NCBI GenBank assembly: GCA_028287895.1
Contig: JAQBOV010000091.1
Span: 1 to 64,000 of the forward strand
Direction: 5' to 3'
Source of the DNA: Mucilaginibacter sp.
GTDB lineage: Bacteria; Bacteroidota; Bacteroidia; Sphingobacteriales; Sphingobacteriaceae
DNA length: 64,000 nt
The position numbers and the translations under genes are program-made. The notes beneath the pieces are model-generated. The model did no database searches, was not told the origin of the DNA, and saw only the letters and a program-made list of their open reading frames with translations. Shown one piece after another: positions 3,995-13,046 of the stretch (its first letter is position 1; every line of letters begins with the position of its first letter).

Positions 3995-4026
3995 AGTTTA
4001 GAAACATTTCCACGAAGAATGCCCGG

Positions 4027-4344
4027 CTAACGGTGCATTTTTGGATTAAAAGCAATCAGGTGTCTTACATTCTTATGGACCGTTGAATTGGCATCAAAGC
4101 CATATTCTTCCTTATTTAGCGGAAGCGTTAATTTATCTTTAACCAATTTCAGAAATTCAAATAAAACTTCCTGTGCCGGATGGGCTGAAATGGTAGGATA
4201 ATATTCTTTCTCAATTTTGGTCTTTTCTACATCGGTAACCAAACTAAATTGCCAGCCTTCCTGGTTATTGAAACCAAATTCACTTGCACAATTCTTCAGG
4301 TCATAGACATATTCCCTTGCCTGGGATTCTATTGTTTTGCTCAT
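4027..4344 (-). CDS. Hypothetical 105-residue soluble protein
   Basis: The protein is charged and without membrane segments or a signal peptide. It contains AREYVYDLKNCASEFGFNN near the N-terminus and an alternating hydrophobic pattern suggesting a small alpha/beta fold. I do not recognise the family. A lysine-rich 44-residue frame ends 5 bases upstream and is probably its operon partner. Downstream it ends at the bidirectional terminator 3954-3994. Confidence 0.6.
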   Translation of the reverse strand: MSKTIESQAREYVYDLKNCASEFGFNNQEGWQFSLVTDVEKTKIEKEYYPTISAHPAQEVLFEFLKLVKDKLTLPLNKEEYGFDANSTVHKNVRHLIAFNPKMHR

Positions 4345-4349
4345 ACTTG

Positions 4350-4484
4350 TTATTTTTTCTTGACCGGTATGATGTCTGATTTGGATACCGAGGATTTTCC
4401 GGCCTGGTAATCGGATGGCGCTTTTTTGCCAAGCGGGTTAGCCGGTTTCTTTTTATCTTTTATCATTTGTCTGTCCTTGCTCAT
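4350..4484 (-). CDS. Small lysine-rich protein, 44 residues
   Basis: A complete ATG-to-TAA frame below usual length cut-offs. The product starts MSKDRQMIKDKKKPANPLGK and continues with APSDYQAGKSSVSKSD, ending PVKKK. Eleven or so lysines and no hydrophobic stretch suggest a disordered, possibly nucleic-acid-binding protein. It sits 5 bases upstream of the 105-residue gene on the same strand, which supports real co-expression. Function unknown. Confidence 0.55.
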   Translation of the reverse strand: MSKDRQMIKDKKKPANPLGKKAPSDYQAGKSSVSKSDIIPVKKK

Positions 4485-4737
4485 GATCGTATTATTTTAA
4501 TGTTTTATAATAATGGTTTAAACTTTAGGTTGAACAAAATAAAGTTTAACGCAGCCGTTTTTAGAAGGTAAAAAAAGGATTACTGCAGAAGAAGTGAGCA
4601 GCAGGCCTTTACAGATTATATTGTCGATTTTACGAAAGGTAAGGTTTTAATACCGAATAGAAGCATTTGGCGGGAATATATTTTTTTGAGCAGATGCTTT
4701 TGCGGGCAGGCAGACAGGGCAAGCATGTTATTTTACC
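4485..4737. other. Noncoding interval before the DinB terminator
   Basis: About 250 bases (310 with the hairpin that follows) without a convincing reading frame. The part next to 4485 should hold the promoter of the small minus-strand genes; no clean TAnnTTTG box was seen on the minus strand. Confidence 0.5.
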
Positions 4738-4775
4738 TATAAAAGGGATTGTTTTGCCAGACAATCCCTTTTATA
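4738..4775 (-). terminator. Intrinsic terminator of the DinB-like gene
   Basis: A perfect 15-bp stem pairs 4738-4752 with 4761-4775 (core AAAAGGGATTGT / ACAATCCCTTTT) across an 8-base loop. It begins 19 bases after the minus-strand stop at 4795. Confidence 0.8.
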
Positions 4776-4794
4776 TATTTCTATATATTTTTGT

Positions 4795-5322
4795 TTAGAA
4801 TAATTTCTCAGCAGGCGGTGTTACCCCTTTTAAGCGAAGATAAGCAACTGTTTGCCCGCGGTGATGAGTTTGGTGTTCAAATGCTTTGCTGATAACCGTA
4901 GCTTTTGTTAGCTCCTGACCGGCAAACTTCATGGATTCCTGCAACTGGGCAGGCGTTATACCCTGGATGGCGCTAATTACGAAATCGTAACTGTCCATCA
5001 CCGCTTTGGTGGTGGCTTCTTTAGTTTGGGGGATTGTTTTTTCTGCGGATACTTTTCCAAGAGGATTTGCTTTACCGGAGGCAGCGCCAAGAAATCCATA
5101 ATTACCATCAGCCAGGTGCAGCATCTGGCCCGCAAATGAGCGCATTTCAGGTGTTGGTTTAAAGCTGTAGCCATTTTCAGGCATAGCATCGAGGTATTCT
5201 TTGGTATAGGCTTTGGCTCGTTGCCAGTCGGCAAGCATCTGGGCATTGCTCACCTGGGCATACGCGGATGCGCAAGTGAAAACAGTCACCAGTAAAGTAA
5301 ACAGTATGGTTAATCGTTTCAT
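4795..5322 (-). CDS. Secreted DinB-family protein
   Basis: The 175-residue protein has an N-terminal signal peptide (MKRLTILFTLLVTVFTCASA with cleavage near AYAQ, residue 23). The rest is a four-helix DinB/YfiT-type bundle with the expected metal-binding histidines: one in QMLHLADGN near residue 68 and a pair in FEHQTHHRGQTVAYLR near residues 149-153. DinB-like proteins bind a divalent metal and some act as thiol-dependent transferases; an exported copy is less usual but common in Bacteroidota. It is a single-gene unit with its own terminator. The biochemical activity is not predictable. Confidence 0.85.
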   Translation of the reverse strand: MKRLTILFTLLVTVFTCASAYAQVSNAQMLADWQRAKAYTKEYLDAMPENGYSFKPTPEMRSFAGQMLHLADGNYGFLGAASGKANPLGKVSAEKTIPQTKEATTKAVMDSYDFVISAIQGITPAQLQESMKFAGQELTKATVISKAFEHQTHHRGQTVAYLRLKGVTPPAEKLF

Positions 5323-5434
5323 AATTAATTTTGGTTTTAGTGGTTTTGATTTAAGCTAAGTTATTAAATATATCCCTTAAAACACTTAAACTATCCGAAA
5401 AGTGATTTAAGCCCATATATCAGTCTGTCTCCAT

Positions 5435-5462
5435 AAAAAAGCCCCGGCATCATGCCAGGGCT
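5435..5462 (-). terminator. Intrinsic terminator of nrdJ
   Basis: AGCCC(C)GGCAT (5440-5450) pairs with ATGCC(A)GGGCT (5452-5462). Read on the minus strand it is followed by six T, about 100 bases after the nrdJ stop. Confidence 0.8.
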
Positions 5463-5560
5463 CACACACATTAACTATATAAAACTGAACTTGCTAGTCA
5501 ACTTTATGGATCGCTTGTAATTAAAAGTTTCAGGTGCCTTTTGCCTTTATTCCTTCACTT

Positions 5561-8500
5561 CTAGGAGCAACCCATCGAGTTACCGCAGTTTAAACATTTA
5601 TAGCAGGTGCCTGAACGCACGGTCGTATGCCCGCACACATTGCATGATGGCGCATCGCTTTGCACGCCCATGCTTAGGTCAACGCTCATGCCTTGTTTCT
5701 TGCTGCCGGTATTCGCTGATACTTTTTCGGGAGCAGGCTGATAAACATTGCTGGTATCAGGGTTGGTGTCTTCATCCTCCATTTGCGGGTTGCCTATAAC
5801 ACCTTTTTGTTCGGTTATCACATGCACCAGGTCAGTACGGTCAAGGTACTCGTAACCCAGCATTCTGAAGATATAGTCGATAATTGAAGTAGCGCTCTTG
5901 ATGTTTGCATGACCAACTACCATACCGGCCGGCTCAAAGCGCGTGAAAGTAAATTTCTCCACATATTCTTCCAGCGGTACGCCATATTGTAAACCCACCG
6001 AAACGGCAATGGCAAAGCAGTTCATCAGCGAGCGGAAGGTTGCACCCTCTTTGTGCATATCCACAAAAATCTCGCCCAGTGTTCCATCTTCATACTCACC
6101 TGTGCGCACAAATACGGTTTGTCCGTCGATGCTGGCTTTTTGGGTATAGCCTCTGCGTTTGTAAGGCAAACTCTTTTTTTGTACTACGCGCGATAACTGA
6201 CGCATGAAATTGGTGTCTTTTGATTTTTCCATGATGGCCACCGCTGCTTCCAATACCTGTTCAGGGGTAAGGTCGCTTAATTTAACGTTGGCTGCTTCGC
6301 CTAAAACTTCTTCAACAGAATCCAGTTTATCATCCGCATCTTCTTTCTTGTCAGATTTGGTTGATAAAGGCTGGGAAAGTTTGCAACCATCGCGATAAAG
6401 CGCATTGGCTTTCAGCCCCAAAGTCCATGAAAGCTCGTAGCAGTCTTTTATTTCTTCAACCTTAGCCTCATTTGGCAGGTTGATAGTTTTTGAAATAGCG
6501 CCCGACAGGAACGGTTGTGCTGCTGCCATCATTTTGATGTGGCCGTGAGCATGGATATAACGTTCGCCTTTGGCGCCGCATTTGTTAGCACAATCAAATA
6601 TCGGGTAATGTTCAGGTTTTAGATATTGGGCACCTTCAATGGTCATCGTACCGCAGATGTATTCGTTAGCTTCAGCAATTTGTTTTCTGGTGAACCCTAA
6701 AGAACGCAATACATTAAAATCAGGTGCATTATATTGCTCGGCAGTTAATCCCAAACGTTTCAGGCAATCTTCGCCCAATGACCAGATGTTGAACGCAAAG
6801 CTGATCTCGAATGCAGATACCAGGCCTTTATCCAGTTTCTCCAGTTCATCATTCGTGAAGCCTTTTGCTTTAAGCGTATCCACATTAATATGCGGCGCAC
6901 CTTTTAAAGTGGCTGCTCCTTTTGCATAATTTACAATTGCGGTCACTTCATGCTCCTTGTAACCCAGGTTTTTCAATGCTTCAGGTACCGCCTGGTTGAT
7001 GATCTTGAAATAACCGCCACCCGATAATTTTTTGAATTTAACCAATGCAAAATCTGGCTCGATGCCGGTAGTATCGCAATCCATTACCAAACCGATTGTG
7101 CCCGTTGGCGCAATAACGGTGGTTTGTGCATTGCGGTAGCCATATTGTTCGCCCATTTCAACAGCTTTGTCCCATGCATTGCATGCTGCCGAAAGTAAAT
7201 AGTCCGGGCAATATTTTTGGTCGATGCCGGGAGGATGGATCTCCAGGTTTTCGTAGTTCTCAGTAGAGTTATACGCTGCATAGCGGTGGTTGCGCATTAC
7301 ACGCAGCATGTGTTTTTTATTTTCCTCGTACCTGCGGAACGGGCCTAATTCGCGGGCAAGCTCGGCCGATGTAGCATAAGCGGTACCGGTCATGATGGCC
7401 GTAATGGCACCACCGATGGCACGTGCTTTATCACTATCATAAGGGATCCCGTTCACCATTAAGGCTGAACCTAGGTTTGCATAGCCTAAACCAAGCGTGC
7501 GATAGTCATATGAAAGCTGTGCAACCTCTTTCGAGGGGAATTGCGCCATTAATACGGATATTTCCAACACGATGGTCCATACCCGGCAAGAATGTTCAAA
7601 GCCCCTTACGTCAAAAGTGCGTGTTTGTTCGTCAAAGAAATGGGCAAGATTAATAGATGCCAGGTTACATGCGGTATTATCCAGGAACATGTACTCGGAG
7701 CATGGATTAGAGGCATTAATGCGGCCGCCTTCAGGACAGGTATGCCATTCGTTGATCGTGCTGTCATACTGTATGCCCGGATCGGCACATGCCCATGCCG
7801 CAAAAGCGATATCATCCCATAACTTTTGTGAGGATATTGATTTTACAGTCTTACCATTCATCCGGCCGATAAGATCCCAGTCTTTGCCCGCTTTAAGGGC
7901 ATGAAAGAAGTGGTTAGGAACCCGTACCGAGTTATTCGAGTTCTGGCCGGATACGGTGCGGTAAGCTTCACCTTCGTAGTCTGATGAATAACCAGCAGCG
8001 ATTAGTGCAGCAACTTTTTTCTCTTCTTCCACTTTCCAGTTTACAAAACCTTCGATTTCAGGATGATCGAGATCCAGGCAAACCATTTTGGCTGCTCTTC
8101 GTGTAGTACCGCCTGATTTGATGGCACCTGCCGCACGGTCGCCTATTTTAAGGAACGACATCAAACCTGATGAATATCCGCCGCCGGATAATTTTTCGCT
8201 CTCACCACGTATTTTGGAGAAGTTGGTGCCTACACCTGAACCATATTTAAAAATGCGTGCCTCACGAACCCAAAGATCCATGATACCGCCTTCATTAACC
8301 AGGTCGTCTTCTACGGATAAAATAAAGCAGGCATGCGGCTGCGGACGCTCGTACGCAGACGTCGATTTGCTTAATACTTCGGTAATGGGGTCCACAAAAT
8401 AATGTCCCTGCGGCTTTCCGGTAATACCGTATGAAGTATGTAAACCGGTATTGAACCATTGTGGCGAGTTTGGCGCTGCCAGCTGACCAACAATAGTATA

Positions 8501-8887
8501 AACTATTTCATCATAAAATATTTCGGCATCCTTTGTTGAAGCGAAATAGCCATAACGCGTACCCCAGTCTTTCCAGCAATTAGCCATACGGTGGGCAACC
8601 TGCTTAATGCTTTTTTCAGAACCTGTTGAACCATCGGGCTGCGGAACCATTGCCTTGCGGAAATACTTTTGGGCCAGAATATCAGTTGCTACCTGCGACC
8701 AGGAAGCCGGCACTTCAACGTCGTTCATTTCAAATACAGCATCACCCGACGGGTTGCGTATCACTGAAGAGCGCTTTTCGTATTTGAACAGGTCATATAC
8801 GTTTTTTCCCTCTTTGCTAAAGTATCTGTCGATCTTTAGGCCTTTGCCGCCCGGAGCGGTTGCTTTTTTTGAAATGTTTTTGCCCAT
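5561..8887 (-). CDS. nrdJ: Adenosylcobalamin-dependent (class II) ribonucleotide reductase
   Basis: This 1108-residue enzyme reduces ribonucleotides to deoxyribonucleotides using a B12-derived radical, independent of oxygen. Visible landmarks are SPQWFNTGLH (141-150), Cys187 in HACFILS, the catalytic NPCSE motif at 394-398 with Asn394, Cys396 and Glu398, and Cys407 in TACNLAS as the second redox cysteine. APTGTIGLVMDCDTTGIEPD binds substrate phosphate. A TSCPD-type domain follows near residues 940-1030, and the C-terminus carries two CxxC pairs (CNVCGH and CYKCLNCG) forming a zinc-ribbon-like tail that probably shuttles electrons. No class I nrdAB genes are in the window. A -7 box lies at 8943-8950 and a long inverted repeat upstream of it. 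Confidence 0.97.
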   Translation of the reverse strand: MGKNISKKATAPGGKGLKIDRYFSKEGKNVYDLFKYEKRSSVIRNPSGDAVFEMNDVEVPASWSQVATDILAQKYFRKAMVPQPDGSTGSEKSIKQVAHRMANCWKDWGTRYGYFASTKDAEIFYDEIVYTIVGQLAAPNSPQWFNTGLHTSYGITGKPQGHYFVDPITEVLSKSTSAYERPQPHACFILSVEDDLVNEGGIMDLWVREARIFKYGSGVGTNFSKIRGESEKLSGGGYSSGLMSFLKIGDRAAGAIKSGGTTRRAAKMVCLDLDHPEIEGFVNWKVEEEKKVAALIAAGYSSDYEGEAYRTVSGQNSNNSVRVPNHFFHALKAGKDWDLIGRMNGKTVKSISSQKLWDDIAFAAWACADPGIQYDSTINEWHTCPEGGRINASNPCSEYMFLDNTACNLASINLAHFFDEQTRTFDVRGFEHSCRVWTIVLEISVLMAQFPSKEVAQLSYDYRTLGLGYANLGSALMVNGIPYDSDKARAIGGAITAIMTGTAYATSAELARELGPFRRYEENKKHMLRVMRNHRYAAYNSTENYENLEIHPPGIDQKYCPDYLLSAACNAWDKAVEMGEQYGYRNAQTTVIAPTGTIGLVMDCDTTGIEPDFALVKFKKLSGGGYFKIINQAVPEALKNLGYKEHEVTAIVNYAKGAATLKGAPHINVDTLKAKGFTNDELEKLDKGLVSAFEISFAFNIWSLGEDCLKRLGLTAEQYNAPDFNVLRSLGFTRKQIAEANEYICGTMTIEGAQYLKPEHYPIFDCANKCGAKGERYIHAHGHIKMMAAAQPFLSGAISKTINLPNEAKVEEIKDCYELSWTLGLKANALYRDGCKLSQPLSTKSDKKEDADDKLDSVEEVLGEAANVKLSDLTPEQVLEAAVAIMEKSKDTNFMRQLSRVVQKKSLPYKRRGYTQKASIDGQTVFVRTGEYEDGTLGEIFVDMHKEGATFRSLMNCFAIAVSVGLQYGVPLEEYVEKFTFTRFEPAGMVVGHANIKSATSIIDYIFRMLGYEYLDRTDLVHVITEQKGVIGNPQMEDEDTNPDTSNVYQPAPEKVSANTGSKKQGMSVDLSMGVQSDAPSCNVCGHTTVRSGTCYKCLNCGNSMGCS

Positions 8888-8942
8888 ATCTGTATGTCTA
8901 ATAAGTTATTATAATGTTAAAAAATCCCTAGGGGTTTTTAAC

Positions 8943-8950
8943 CAAATTTA
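8943..8950 (-). promoter_or_regulatory. nrdJ promoter -7 box
   Basis: Read on the minus strand this is TAAATTTG, a perfect TAnnTTTG box, about 55 bases upstream of the nrdJ ATG. The -33 position (about 8970-8973) reads TTGA, a partial match. Confidence 0.5.
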
Positions 8951-8979
8951 TTATTCTGAGCGAGCTAATTCAATTCAGA

Positions 8980-9068
8980 GTTTTCCACACGCTGTGGAGT
9001 CGAAGCTTATTGTTATTATTCTTATACTTTAAACAACTGCTTTACAGGTTATTGTGCGTGTGGAAAAC
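8980..9068. repeat. 13-bp perfect inverted repeat with DnaA-box-like cores
   Basis: GTTTTCCACACGC (8980-8992) and GCGTGTGGAAAAC (9056-9068) are exact reverse complements separated by 63 bases. Each contains TTTTCCACA, which fits the relaxed DnaA-box consensus TTWTNCACA. The left copy also forms a local dyad, TCCACA-CGC-TGTGGA. The left arm begins about 10 bases upstream of the expected -33 region of nrdJ. Confidence 0.75.
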
Positions 9069-9386
9069 TAAAGATTGAAAAATAAATCAGAAATTTTGAG
9101 TTAATTTTGCTATGTTTTTCACTAAATATAAAGATACCCTTTTCTATCAAAAATTTGGCCATTTTGAGATATGGCTGACCAAATTGGATACGAACCTGAT
9201 CTGTAAAATTTAAATAATAATTAAACTATATGAACGTTTTCCGGTATTAATTATAGCACCAAAATTTTACGGATATGGAGATGATAGGAATTTATTGGAA
9301 CTATTACTTTGTCAACCTTGATAAATTATTTCTGAAGGTATGCCAGGCAGAGATTTATTAGTTGTTGCCCCGAAGGCTGTAAAGCC

Positions 9387-9478
9387 CCGGGAAGGTTGGA
9401 AGGTTATTATAGCGGGCATTGTTTTATTTTAATAATTTATAAAACAAGTTTCAACTTTAAAACCTTCCAGCCTTACCG
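9387..9478. repeat. Long nested hairpin at the 3' end of pyk
   Basis: GGTTGGAAGGTT (9394-9405) pairs with AACCTTCCAGCC (9461-9472) with one G-U wobble, and outer bases extend the stem to about 17 pairs. Inside, TTGTTTTAT (9419-9427) pairs perfectly with ATAAAACAA (9439-9447). It begins only a few bases after the pyk stop and may terminate or protect that transcript. It shares its design with other junction hairpins in the window. Confidence 0.7.
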
Positions 9479-9482
9479 CAGC

Positions 9483-10919
9483 TTACTCTACAACACTTAC
9501 CTTAAGCATATTGGTTTTGCCCTGCTTATAGATAGGTACAGCCGCAGTGTTAATGACCACATCACCTACCTCAATCAGGTTCTCAGATTTAAGGATTTCG
9601 TTTACATCACTGATGGTTTGATCCGTGCTTTCCAGTTTATCATAGTAAAAAGCACGCACTCCCCAGACCAGGCTTAAAGCATTCAGCAGGTTTTTGTTGG
9701 ATGTAAATATATAAGTACTGGCTTTGGGCCTGTGGCTTGATATTTCGAACGCAGTATAACCGGATACAGTCATCGACACGATACCTACCGCATTGGTATG
9801 TTCGGCCAGGTAAACTGCCGATCCACATAGCGCATCACTAAGATAATTAGCCGGTGTTGGTGGTGTGATTGGTTCAACGGTGGTGTTAAAAGGATAACCC
9901 AGTTCTTCCACATTCCTTACAATTTTGGCCATTGTTTCAATAACGATCACCGGGAATTCACCTACCGAGGTTTCCCCGCTAAGCATTACCGCATCAGCGC
10001 CGTCCAGTACAGAATTGGCTACGTCATTCACCTCAGCCCTTGTAGGCCGTGGTGTAGTGATCATAGATTCGAGCATTTGGGTGGCAACTATTACCGGTTT
10101 TGACGCTGCACGACATTTCCGGGCGATCATTTTTTGCAGTAATGGAACTTCTTCAAGCGGCATTTCAACGCCCAGGTCGCCGCGGGCGACCATTACACCA
10201 TCGGATGCTTCAATAATGCCGTCAATATTATCAATAGCTTCCGGTTTTTCAACTTTAGCTATTACTCTTGCAGATTTACCGCTACGGGCGATAATGCGTT
10301 TGAGCTCAACAATATCTTCAGCTGTGCGGACAAACGAAAGCCCTATCCACTCCACATCATTTTGCAACGCAAATTCCAGGTTGATCAGGTCTTCTTCGGT
10401 TAAACTCGGGATAGAAACCTTGGTATTGGGCAGGTTAACACCTTTACGCGATGTTAATATACCACCATGAACCACTTCACAAAGCACGGTATCTTTCCGG
10501 TTGGTCTCGATCACCCGCATCTGTATTTTCCCATCATCCAATAAGATGATCTCATTGGGTTTCACATCCTGCGGGAAAGTTTCATAAGTAATGTATATCC
10601 GGTTATCGTCACCGATACATTCATGGGTAGTGATATTAATATGCGTGCCGTTAACAAGGTGGATACCGCCGTCTTTGACCAGTCCGATGCGGATCTTCGG
10701 GCCCTGCAGATCGGCAAGGATGCCTACATTTATTTTGTATTGTTCGTTAAGTTCGCGAATCGTGTCGATCGTTTTTTGATGATCTTCGGGTTTTCCGTGC
10801 GAAAAATTGAGGCGGCATACATTTACACCAGCCTTTATCATAGCTAATAAAATGTCTTTATTGGTTGATGCCGGACCCATTGTGGCAACAATTTTAGTAC
10901 GGTTATAGGATAATTTCAT
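9483..10919 (-). CDS. pyk: Pyruvate kinase
   Basis: The 478-residue enzyme converts phosphoenolpyruvate and ADP to pyruvate and ATP, the last step of glycolysis. The start is placed at the ATG giving MKLSYNRTKIVATMGPAS, which matches the conserved family N-terminus; a longer frame adds 11 non-family residues. Visible signatures are VCRLNFSHG, the active-site region with IIAKVEKPEAIDNIDGI, the MVARGDLGVEMP metal and substrate segment, and ATQMLESM. The A/B barrel is followed by the C-terminal alpha/beta domain. It lies 48 bases downstream of the IPExxxVDY gene on the same strand, a common Bacteroidota arrangement. Confidence 0.97.
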   Translation of the reverse strand: MKLSYNRTKIVATMGPASTNKDILLAMIKAGVNVCRLNFSHGKPEDHQKTIDTIRELNEQYKINVGILADLQGPKIRIGLVKDGGIHLVNGTHINITTHECIGDDNRIYITYETFPQDVKPNEIILLDDGKIQMRVIETNRKDTVLCEVVHGGILTSRKGVNLPNTKVSIPSLTEEDLINLEFALQNDVEWIGLSFVRTAEDIVELKRIIARSGKSARVIAKVEKPEAIDNIDGIIEASDGVMVARGDLGVEMPLEEVPLLQKMIARKCRAASKPVIVATQMLESMITTPRPTRAEVNDVANSVLDGADAVMLSGETSVGEFPVIVIETMAKIVRNVEELGYPFNTTVEPITPPTPANYLSDALCGSAVYLAEHTNAVGIVSMTVSGYTAFEISSHRPKASTYIFTSNKNLLNALSLVWGVRAFYYDKLESTDQTISDVNEILKSENLIEVGDVVINTAAVPIYKQGKTNMLKVSVVE

Positions 10920-10967
10920 ATTTATCAGTTTAAAACAGTGTAACGCATACACTTTTAAAATTTGGCG

Positions 10968-11393
10968 CTAAAATAGCAGATTTTCGCGTGATTTAATTTT
11001 TTTTGGATCAATCTTTACGGCGGCAACAATTTCGGGTATCCGGTTAAGGGCAGTTAACAGCTTATCCAGGTCGTCATCGTCTATGTAATTTTTTATCATC
11101 AAAAAATAATCTGCCTTACGCATTTCGGGCACAAGGTAGCCGTCCGATCCTTTATTGGCTATAAAAAAAAAATCTGTTTGGCTGGCTTCCCAGTGATATT
11201 GATATAATGAGAAAAATACCGGCCCGGATCCCTGAAGAATATCGACTTCAAGGTCAGCCATCTTTAAAAGACCGAAGTTTAAATACTTGTTAATGTGATG
11301 GCAAATACGGTAATCTTTCAGTGATGTTGTGATGGCAATTAACACAAAATCAAGATCGATCTCAAACTTTAAAATTTTCCTGTTCAAAATCAC
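10968..11393 (-). CDS. IPExxxVDY family protein
   Basis: The 141-residue protein carries the family signature in the form VPEMRKADYFLMIKN (about residues 92-106), preceded by a start typical of the family (ILKFEIDLDFVLIAITTSLKDYRICHHIN). The family is confined to Bacteroidota, is of unknown function, and commonly sits between acpP and pyk, as here. No membrane helix or signal peptide is present. It is divergent from acpP and probably co-transcribed with pyk. Confidence 0.85.
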   Translation of the reverse strand: MILNRKILKFEIDLDFVLIAITTSLKDYRICHHINKYLNFGLLKMADLEVDILQGSGPVFFSLYQYHWEASQTDFFFIANKGSDGYLVPEMRKADYFLMIKNYIDDDDLDKLLTALNRIPEIVAAVKIDPKKIKSRENLLF

Positions 11394-11470
11394 TACTTTT
11401 ACGCCGTCAAAAATACAAATTGAAACCCTTGCAATAAAATATTGTTACTTGTATGGCAAAAGTTTTTAGA

Positions 11471-11501
11471 TTTGATATTTGATAGATTTTATTTTTCTTT
11501 G
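11471..11501 (+). promoter_or_regulatory. Probable acpP promoter
   Basis: TTTG at 11471-11474 and TTTCTTTG at 11494-11501 (a one-mismatch TAnnTTTG) are 19 bases apart. The acpP start is 36 bases further. Confidence 0.45.
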
Positions 11502-11537
11502 CACTGAATTTTTATTAATCATTAAACTATAAAGAGT

Positions 11538-11774
11538 ATGTCTGATATCGCTTCAAGAGTAAAAGCTATTATCGTAGAAAAATTAGGTGTTGACGAAAGT
11601 GAAGTAACACCTGAAGCTAGCTTCACCAATGACCTTGGTGCAGATTCGTTAGACACCGTGGAATTAATCATGGAGTTTGAAAAAGAATTTAACGTGGCTA
11701 TTCCTGACGATCAGGCTGAAACTATAGGTACTGTAGGCCAGGCTATCGCTTACCTTGAAAAAAACGTTAAATAA
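11538..11774 (+). CDS. acpP: Acyl carrier protein
   Basis: The 78-residue acidic protein carries growing acyl chains in fatty acid synthesis. The phosphopantetheine attachment serine is Ser37 in [15 protein letters not shown]. Length and acidity are typical. It is the first gene of an acpP-fabF-rnc cluster, with 18 bases to fabF, the usual order in many bacteria. Confidence 0.98.
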
Positions 11775-11792
11775 GCTCCCTAATTTTACTAA

Positions 11793-13046
11793 ATGGAGTT
11801 TAAAAGAGTTGTAGTAACCGGGCTTGGGGCACTTACTCCAATTGGCAACAGCGTTCCTGAATATTGGAATTCATTGATCAATGGAGTGAGTGGCGCCGCC
11901 TTAATCAGGAGTTTTGACACCACAAATTTCAAAACCAAATTTGCTTGCGAGGTAAAGAATTTTGATGCGGATGCGTTTTTGGGCCGGAAAGACGCCCGAA
12001 AACTGGATCCCTTTGTTCAATATGCATTATTCTCAACGGAAGAAGCCGTAAAAGACGCTGGATTAGACTTTGAGAAGCTGGATACCAGCCGCATCGGCGT
12101 AATATGGGGATCGGGCATTGGCGGGCTGAAAACATTTTTAGACGAGGTCGTTAACTTTGCCAAAGGGGACGGAACACCACGTTTTAATCCGTTTTTCATT
12201 CCCAAGATGATAGCAGATATAGCTCCCGGCCATATCTCTATTAAATACGGTTTGCGCGGACCAAACTTTACCACGGTTTCCGCTTGTGCCTCATCCAATA
12301 ATTCGCTGATCGATTCATTTAACTATATCCGCCTGGGTAAAGCTAATATGTTTATAAGCGGCGGCTCTGAAGCCATTATTAATGAGGCAGGTATCGGCGG
12401 GTTTAACGCAATGCATGCTTTATCAACCCGTAATGATGATCCGGTTACGGCTTCACGCCCATTTGATCTTGACCGTGATGGATTTGTAGCGGGTGAAGGC
12501 GCCGGAACGATTATTCTGGAAGAATTGGAACATGCCAAAGCACGCGGTGCGAAAATTTATGCGGAAATGGTTGGCGGCGGCATGAGTGCTGATGCCTATC
12601 ACATGACCGCTCCGCATCCTGACGGCCTTGGTGCCGCACTGGTAATGAAAGCTGCCTTGGAAGATGCGGGCCTGAAACCATCTGATATCGATTATGTGAA
12701 TGTTCATGGCACATCGACGCCAATTGGTGATCCGCAGGAAGTTAAAGCGATACAGGATACGTTTGGCGATGATATTTATCGCATAAATATCAGCTCGACC
12801 AAATCTATGACCGGCCATTTGCTGGGTGCTGCGGGAGCTATTGAGGCTATCGCCGCTATATTAGCTACTAAAAATGATGTTATCCCCCCAACGATCAACC
12901 ATTTTACCGATGATCCGGCCTTTGATCCTAAAATAAACTTTACGTTTAATACTGCTCAAAAAAGAGTAGTCAGGGTAGCCCAAAGCAACGGATTTGGTTT
13001 TGGAGGCCATAACGCTTCAGTAATATTTAAAAAGTACGAAGATTAA
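11793..13046 (+). CDS. fabF: Beta-ketoacyl-ACP synthase II
   Basis: The 417-residue thiolase-fold enzyme condenses malonyl-ACP with acyl-ACP during chain elongation. The Cys-His-His triad is visible: Cys165 in TVSACASSNN, the first His in VNVHGTSTPIGD, and the second in STKSMTGHLLGAAGA. The C-terminal NGFGFGGHNAS motif is also present. It directly follows acpP and precedes rnc by 9 bases, consistent with one transcript. Confidence 0.98.
   Translation: MEFKRVVVTGLGALTPIGNSVPEYWNSLINGVSGAALIRSFDTTNFKTKFACEVKNFDADAFLGRKDARKLDPFVQYALFSTEEAVKDAGLDFEKLDTSRIGVIWGSGIGGLKTFLDEVVNFAKGDGTPRFNPFFIPKMIADIAPGHISIKYGLRGPNFTTVSACASSNNSLIDSFNYIRLGKANMFISGGSEAIINEAGIGGFNAMHALSTRNDDPVTASRPFDLDRDGFVAGEGAGTIILEELEHAKARGAKIYAEMVGGGMSADAYHMTAPHPDGLGAALVMKAALEDAGLKPSDIDYVNVHGTSTPIGDPQEVKAIQDTFGDDIYRINISSTKSMTGHLLGAAGAIEAIAAILATKNDVIPPTINHFTDDPAFDPKINFTFNTAQKRVVRVAQSNGFGFGGHNASVIFKKYED

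Follow-up and report, generated by a model that had tools for sequence, protein, structure and literature searches.

What is the function of the paired DnaA-box-like sites that precede nrdJ, and which protein reads them? The question is raised by the Mucilaginibacter sp. window analysed here (the whole stretch of 64,000 nucleotides of contig JAQBOV010000091.1), in which an inverted pair of such sites lies in front of the promoter of nrdJ, the gene of a B12-dependent class II ribonucleotide reductase. The sites at nrdJ are real, conserved and precisely placed, and within the genus the promoters of nrdJ and of nrdBA, the genes of a class Ia reductase, share a box of one consensus at an equivalent position. 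DnaA boxes that co-regulate both reductases are the best reading of these sites and probably the correct one; that DnaA is the binder is what we infer from sequence comparison.

Inverted repeat and promoter elements upstream of nrdJ

A first-pass annotation of the window had described a perfect 13-bp inverted repeat at this place. The repeat is real, and at 14 bp it is one longer than stated; 63 nt lie between its arms, and it extends to 24 nt at 83%. The features of the locus are listed below by window position.

5561..8887, minus strand: nrdJ, B12-dependent class II ribonucleotide reductase, 1108 amino acids (NCBIfam TIGR02504 NrdJ_Z, 584.9 bits, and NF005122, 1246.5 bits, both above cut-off)
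8943-8950, minus strand: -7 element TAAATTTG (TAnnTTTG), 39 bp from the near-box start
8971-8973, minus strand: putative -33 element TTG (columns A46 T50 T40 G45 of 58)
8979-8992: near arm of the 14-bp perfect inverted repeat, AGTTTTCCACACGC, read directly
8979..8989, minus strand: near box TGTGGAAAACT (reverse complement of AGTTTTCCACA), a putative DnaA box
8993..9001, minus strand: degenerate box GACTCCACA, head-to-head with the near box across a 3-bp gap, which makes a local dyad
9056-9069: far arm of the 14-bp perfect inverted repeat, GCGTGTGGAAAACT, the exact reverse complement of AGTTTTCCACACGC
9059..9069, plus strand: far box, in the opposite orientation to the near box, with 69 bp between the 11-mers
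9483-10952, minus strand: pyk, upstream of nrdJ

The DnaA box has the general form TTWTNCACA. Direct reading confirmed the earlier statement that each arm contains TTTTCCACA, which matches the DnaA box TTATCCACA at 8/9 positions and occurs twice in the window, both times in the arms. On its own this word is ordinary, with 1.25 copies expected in the window and two or more in 38/100 shuffles. When the 595-bp intergenic region was shuffled by dinucleotides, the longest perfect inverted repeat reached at least 14 bp in 7/1000 and at least 13 bp in 18/1000 cases, so the repeat by itself is moderately unusual and conservation was taken as the deciding test.

The near arm had been placed just upstream of the expected -33 region, and it does lie there, next to the TTG and TAnnTTTG listed above, which we take to be the known -33 and -7 elements of Bacteroidota. 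The local dyad remarked on at the left arm is the degenerate, opposite-facing box 3 bp from the near box. An Rfam scan of positions 4000-12000 at the gathering threshold found no RNA element at the site. Another inverted repeat (8915-8944), made of an A-run/CCC and a T-run, comes right behind the -7 element, where the nrdJ transcript would start; its A-C and T runs are kept across the genus.

Conservation of the sites in the genus

The genus set comprised 100 Mucilaginibacter genomes, the own genome included, and nrdJ was found in 62. We compared 58 nrdJ upstream regions, again with our own; G009, G015, G040 and G072 were left out, and G009 and G015 still show the box and the -7 element. The arms were located as the best match inside a search window (70 positions for the far arm), which always returns some match, so the claim of conservation rests on spacing, mismatches and the shuffle control.

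The near box was exactly TGTGGAAAACT in 45/58 regions and had one or two mismatches in the other 13. From its start to TAnnTTTG or TAnnTTTA the distance was 39 bp in 53, 40 bp in three and 38 bp in two of the 58 promoters. The best match to the far arm had the opposite orientation in all 58, with 66-69 bp between the boxes (68 bp in 31, 69 in 15, 67 in 11 and 66 in one) and 0-5 mismatches of 13, and the strict form AGTTWTNMACA was fitted in 34. Strict boxes numbered 89 over the 58 regions versus 0.63 expected in shuffles, and at least two were present in 31 regions. Aligning related nrdJ upstream regions had been proposed as the check on the site; the arms keep a fixed geometry in 58/58, and the lack of conservation that was to count against it was not seen.

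Column information over the 58 genomes was 1.2-2.0 bits in the near box and 0.55-2.0 bits in the far box. The sequence between them was mostly below 0.6 bits, apart from a patch that lies 5-20 bp inward of the far box and reaches 1.75 bits. The degenerate head-to-head box, scored as TTNTNMACA, had a mean of 4.83 of 7 matches versus 2.40 (standard deviation 0.57) at other offsets, with 6-7 of 7 matches in 25/58 genomes; the second-best offset for an extra box (4.24 of 7) falls within the conserved patch, 20 bp from the far box.

Two other explanations of the pair can be judged from these data. The idea that each arm serves one of two back-to-back promoters is favoured by TAATTTTG, which occurs 43 bp outward of the far box (9102-9109, plus strand) and may be a divergent promoter in close relatives. 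But beyond about 17 bp on the outer side of the far box the columns show poor conservation in the 58 genomes, no long gene lies in that direction and pyk is oriented the other way, and we regard this explanation as highly improbable. NrdR controls reductases in many bacteria, and its consensus is a 16-bp palindrome. An NrdR operator had been offered as the alternative, and the local dyad of the near arm speaks for it; however, the box is an asymmetric 11-mer, and NrdR was found in 0/100 genus genomes while 9/14 control genomes were positive. An NrdR site is thus rejected for the genus, barring a divergent NrdR below the reach of the model, and its likelihood is close to nil.

The same box at the second reductase

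TGTNNAWAACT was present upstream of the class Ia nrdB gene in 30/30 genus genomes searched; our own nrdB copy was identified by Pfam PF00268. The last box lies 39-40 bp before TAnnTTTG in 26/30, which is the position of the near box at nrdJ, and the four exceptions (G002, G048, G064, G070) all come from genomes without nrdJ. At least two direct copies stand upstream of nrdB in 23/30, the spacing of the last two being 19-20 bp in 22 genomes and 21 bp in one.

Searches of whole genomes gave a similar picture. The box followed by TAnnTTTG at a gap of 27-30 bp occurred at two places in the own genome among the matches listed, nrdJ and nrdBA. Over the 100 genus genomes, the box plus the -7 element gave at least 170 matches in at least 92 genomes versus at least 25 when the pattern was reversed. 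A search for two direct boxes within 30 bp of each other gave one place in the own genome, at nrdBA, and 20 matches in 20 genus genomes (16 at nrdBA by position), versus one control match. A third gene is purA (adenylosuccinate synthase), where a box lies 39 bp before TAnnTTTG in at least eight genus genomes (L211, L215, L232, L233, L234, L235, L238, L241); one purA copy was confirmed by NCBIfam, and the own genome has no purA box among the matches listed.

Could the boxes be titration or replication-linked sites which play no part in controlling the nrdJ promoter? The part of an E. coli paper available to us (PMC12371093) can be cited in support. However, the distance of 38-40 bp to the -7 element at all 58 nrdJ promoters compared and of 39-40 bp at 26/30 nrdBA promoters points to contact with RNA polymerase, and we consider this very unlikely.

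The single box TGTKGAWAACT occurs at 16 places in the own genome versus 12 for the reversed pattern; two of them are the nrdJ arms, and about half of the other 14 lie inside open frames. The copy in front of dnaE faces the other way. A copy before mraZ lies within GTGG repeats that we take to resemble MraZ boxes and was left uncounted.

Some further observations concern box occurrence in general. TTTTCCACA is present 44 times in the own genome versus 87 times for the reversed word, possibly through avoidance of stray boxes. An nrdJ-like box with a -7 element also stands at L227 (G056), L228 (G020) and L217/L246 (G061), where no nrdJ was found and other or no long genes lie downstream. Genes with DUF3127 are near such boxes at L079 in the own genome and at L356, L359 and L360 in another Bacteroidia family. 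L073 and L082 of the own genome are two copies of a repeat with TGTKGATAACTCAACGCTAAT and have similar flanks.

Cobalamin riboswitch in the nrdBA leader

Cobalamin riboswitches of the Streptomyces type are known on class I nrd operons. Our own nrdBA leader likewise carries RF00174 (49.0 bits; G000:C19, locus L084 2573-2832, minus strand); it differs from that type in being combined with the DnaA-type box common to nrdJ. At the gathering threshold RF00174 was detected in 5/11 scanned nrdB loci of nrdJ-bearing genomes and in 0/8 of nrdJ-less genomes, and none was added when the 14 negative nrdB loci were searched again at E-values up to 0.5.

Arm pairs outside the genus

We scanned the named genome collection for the pair AGTTTTCMACA-N66..70-TGTGGAAAACT and obtained 109 loci, which were assigned by the nearest of five query proteins (NrdJ, NrdA, NrdB, DnaA and PurA). 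The pair was upstream of NrdJ in 57 loci, 28 had a DnaA homologue within 3 kb and 24 had neither. In the 57 NrdJ loci, all with Bacteroidota titles, the centre of the pair lies 128-284 bp upstream of the start; NrdJ identity was 77-96% in 52 and 26-27% in five. NCBIfam likewise assigned these five distant proteins to class II, and each of their promoters has two perfect TTTTCCACA copies facing each other head-to-head across 3 bp. Among 37 hand-chosen Sphingobacteriales loci (two of them Mucilaginibacter), TAnnTTT(G/A) stood 38-39 bp from the start of one arm in 35, the exceptions being L283 and L323.

On the dnaA side, the pair was 63-326 bp upstream of dnaA in 18 of the 28 loci, and the titles were mostly Firmicutes with few Actinobacteria; three of the DnaA assignments are weak (L285, L321 and L325, 25-29% identity). 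Three of the 24 remaining loci lie next to pyk, where the fetched piece ends (L265, L324, L339), and two look origin-like by eye (L305, L342).

Box composition was counted in 30 dnaA-type loci; these were chosen because they contain the pair, so the absolute box numbers are biased. Comparison of the sequence within 400 bp of the pair with the rest of the locus, arms included, gave a higher frequency near the pair, by 17x for TTWTCCACA, 13x for TTWTCAACA and 10x for TTWTTAACA. With the arms masked there were 218 TTWTNMACA boxes, of which 105 had the AG prefix and 174 had C at position 5; position 6 was C in 137 and A in 81, in a count that permitted A or C alone there. When any letter was allowed at position 6 (arms included), C (188) and A (97) were still foremost. 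Judged by its letters, the nrdJ motif resembles the boxes around dnaA in other phyla and has the same positional tolerances.

Boxes with a -7 element in other Bacteroidia

In 395 genomes of the class, the box plus the -7 element gave at least 152 matches in at least 120 genomes versus at least 65 reversed-control matches. We fetched 50 of these loci, 30 picked by the program and 20 picked by hand for recurrence. In the 30 program-picked loci, dnaB follows in two, recA in two, a divergent ung is present in five (one family) and 21 have other or unclear neighbours. Over all 50, dnaN comes next in four genomes (all of one family), dnaB and recA in two each and purL in one, and dinB begins near the box in one, besides the five divergent ung genes of one family. 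NCBIfam confirmed one copy of each of these neighbours and both dnaB copies. The 20 hand-picked loci were taken for their recurrence, so the dnaN, purL and dinB cases are biased and the wider pattern is a lead.

As a tentative extension, which we think possible but somewhat doubtful, there may be a Bacteroidota regulon for replication and deoxynucleoside triphosphate (dNTP) supply, in which DnaA would activate from one fixed position through promoter-locked boxes. Its putative members, with TGTKNAWAACT about 39 bp before TAnnTTTG, would be nrdJ, nrdBA and purA in Mucilaginibacter and dnaN, dnaB, recA and purL in other families.

A dense cluster of DnaA-type boxes, at least a dozen of them, lies ahead of nadA in two genomes from a single Bacteroidia family and looks origin-like (L386 1758-2066 and L387 1774-2066).

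DnaA as the candidate binder

The own genome encodes DnaA (TIGR00362, 532.1 bits) with the C-terminal DNA-binding domain (PF08299, 101 bits), and DnaA was found in 24/24 genus genomes searched. The earlier reading of the arms as DnaA boxes is now backed by sequence comparison from four sides, namely the 58/58 geometry, the other Sphingobacteriales, the dnaA loci of other phyla and the nrdBA box.

Several results weigh against it. The dnaA upstream regions of 19 of the 24 genus loci were compared (five at contig starts were left out), and none of the 19 has a box cluster beside dnaA, with 0-6 scattered boxes per 4.4 kb. G097, a close relative, was sampled over about 1.2 Mb and has a weak skew minimum near 1.2-1.32 Mb; the 0.8 Mb around this GC-skew minimum showed at most three boxes per 600 bp and no cluster. 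These searches did not locate the origin of the genus, which DnaA has to bind somewhere. None of the 20 double-box matches in the 20 genus genomes was recognisable as an origin. Position 6 of the box is often A (C or A in relatives), off the E. coli consensus. Bacteroidota appeared in none of the 28 dnaA-side titles, which slightly lowered our confidence in DnaA, and 19/109 pair loci had no assignment. The five distant nrdJ promoters are without TAnnTTTG at 38-40 bp. The nrdBA boxes are 19-20 bp apart from start to start, versus the 2-3 bp gap of the E. coli double box described in the available part of PMC11317965. Finally, eight genomes of other genera of the family gave five box plus -7 matches versus three in the control among the matches listed, none of which was fetched, so sharing with nrdBA is shown for the genus alone.

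Two further searches belong to the hunt for an origin: direct pairs of TTATCCACA within 30 bp occurred in 0/16 genomes, and TTWTCCACA was found at 131 places in G097, 100 of which were listed. Among the listings of an open-access library on DnaA boxes at reductase genes, DnaA regulons or NrdR in Bacteroidetes, no report of such control appeared.

Part of this evidence would fit a different protein, some other Bacteroidota transcription factor, which would read TGTKNAWAACT and govern a regulon for replication and dNTP supply; its site would resemble DnaA boxes by convergence. It would account for the missing clusters near dnaA and the skew minimum and for the dnaA side without Bacteroidota, and also for the strict ACT extension and the 19-20 bp direct repeats; the same promoter geometry before dnaN, dnaB, recA and purL in other Bacteroidia families, with dinB and ung nearby, could also belong to a damage-type regulon. 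Against such a factor, the vicinity of dnaA in other phyla is enriched in a motif with the same tolerances, one Bacteroidia family has the origin-like cluster of such boxes described above, and no candidate protein emerged. We therefore consider it unlikely, though it deserves more weight than any of the other alternatives.

Proposed mechanism and comparison with known systems

If DnaA is the binder, the arms would be extended DnaA boxes, TGTKNAWAACT, that is AG plus TTWTNMACA. DnaA on the near box, aided by the head-to-head half site, would occupy roughly -50 to -40, next to -33 on its upstream side, and would touch RNA polymerase. The position of the near box suggests such a contact, which would make activation likelier than occlusion or repression. 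At a centre-to-centre distance of about 79 bp, the inverted far box would add cooperative binding in the form of an oligomer or a loop, as its fixed distance suggests. DnaA would then set the total reductase supply to the replication status and B12 would choose the enzyme made, a presumed division of labour between the two enzymes.

The closest known case is E. coli nrdAB, which, in the accessible part of PMC8203912, has three DnaA boxes and is activated at low DnaA-ATP or by DnaA-ADP and repressed at high DnaA-ATP. The likeness lies in putative DnaA boxes in a reductase promoter; the sites described here differ by involving the class II enzyme as well, the fixed distance to the Bacteroidota -7 element, the inverted partner 66-69 bp upstream and the fact that NrdR was not found. 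The same part of that source mentions that DnaA regulation of reductase genes has been proposed in Bacillus subtilis and Caulobacter, which share the idea of replication-linked reductase control and differ in phylum and promoter type. As far as the available text of PMC11317965 goes, E. coli DnaA double boxes favour a 2-3 bp gap; the degenerate partner 3 bp from the near box and the perfect partners in the five distant nrdJ promoters may correspond to such a gap, with the nrdJ partner here head-to-head and the nrdBA boxes spaced more widely.

Bacteria that lack NrdR still have to keep dNTP supply in step with replication, and for one such genus a cis-element common to its two reductase promoters can now be named. 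The logic would have two layers, a replication-linked box on both enzymes and a B12 riboswitch on the B12-independent one. If true, DnaA control of reductases would also reach a class II enzyme and the promoters of Bacteroidota.
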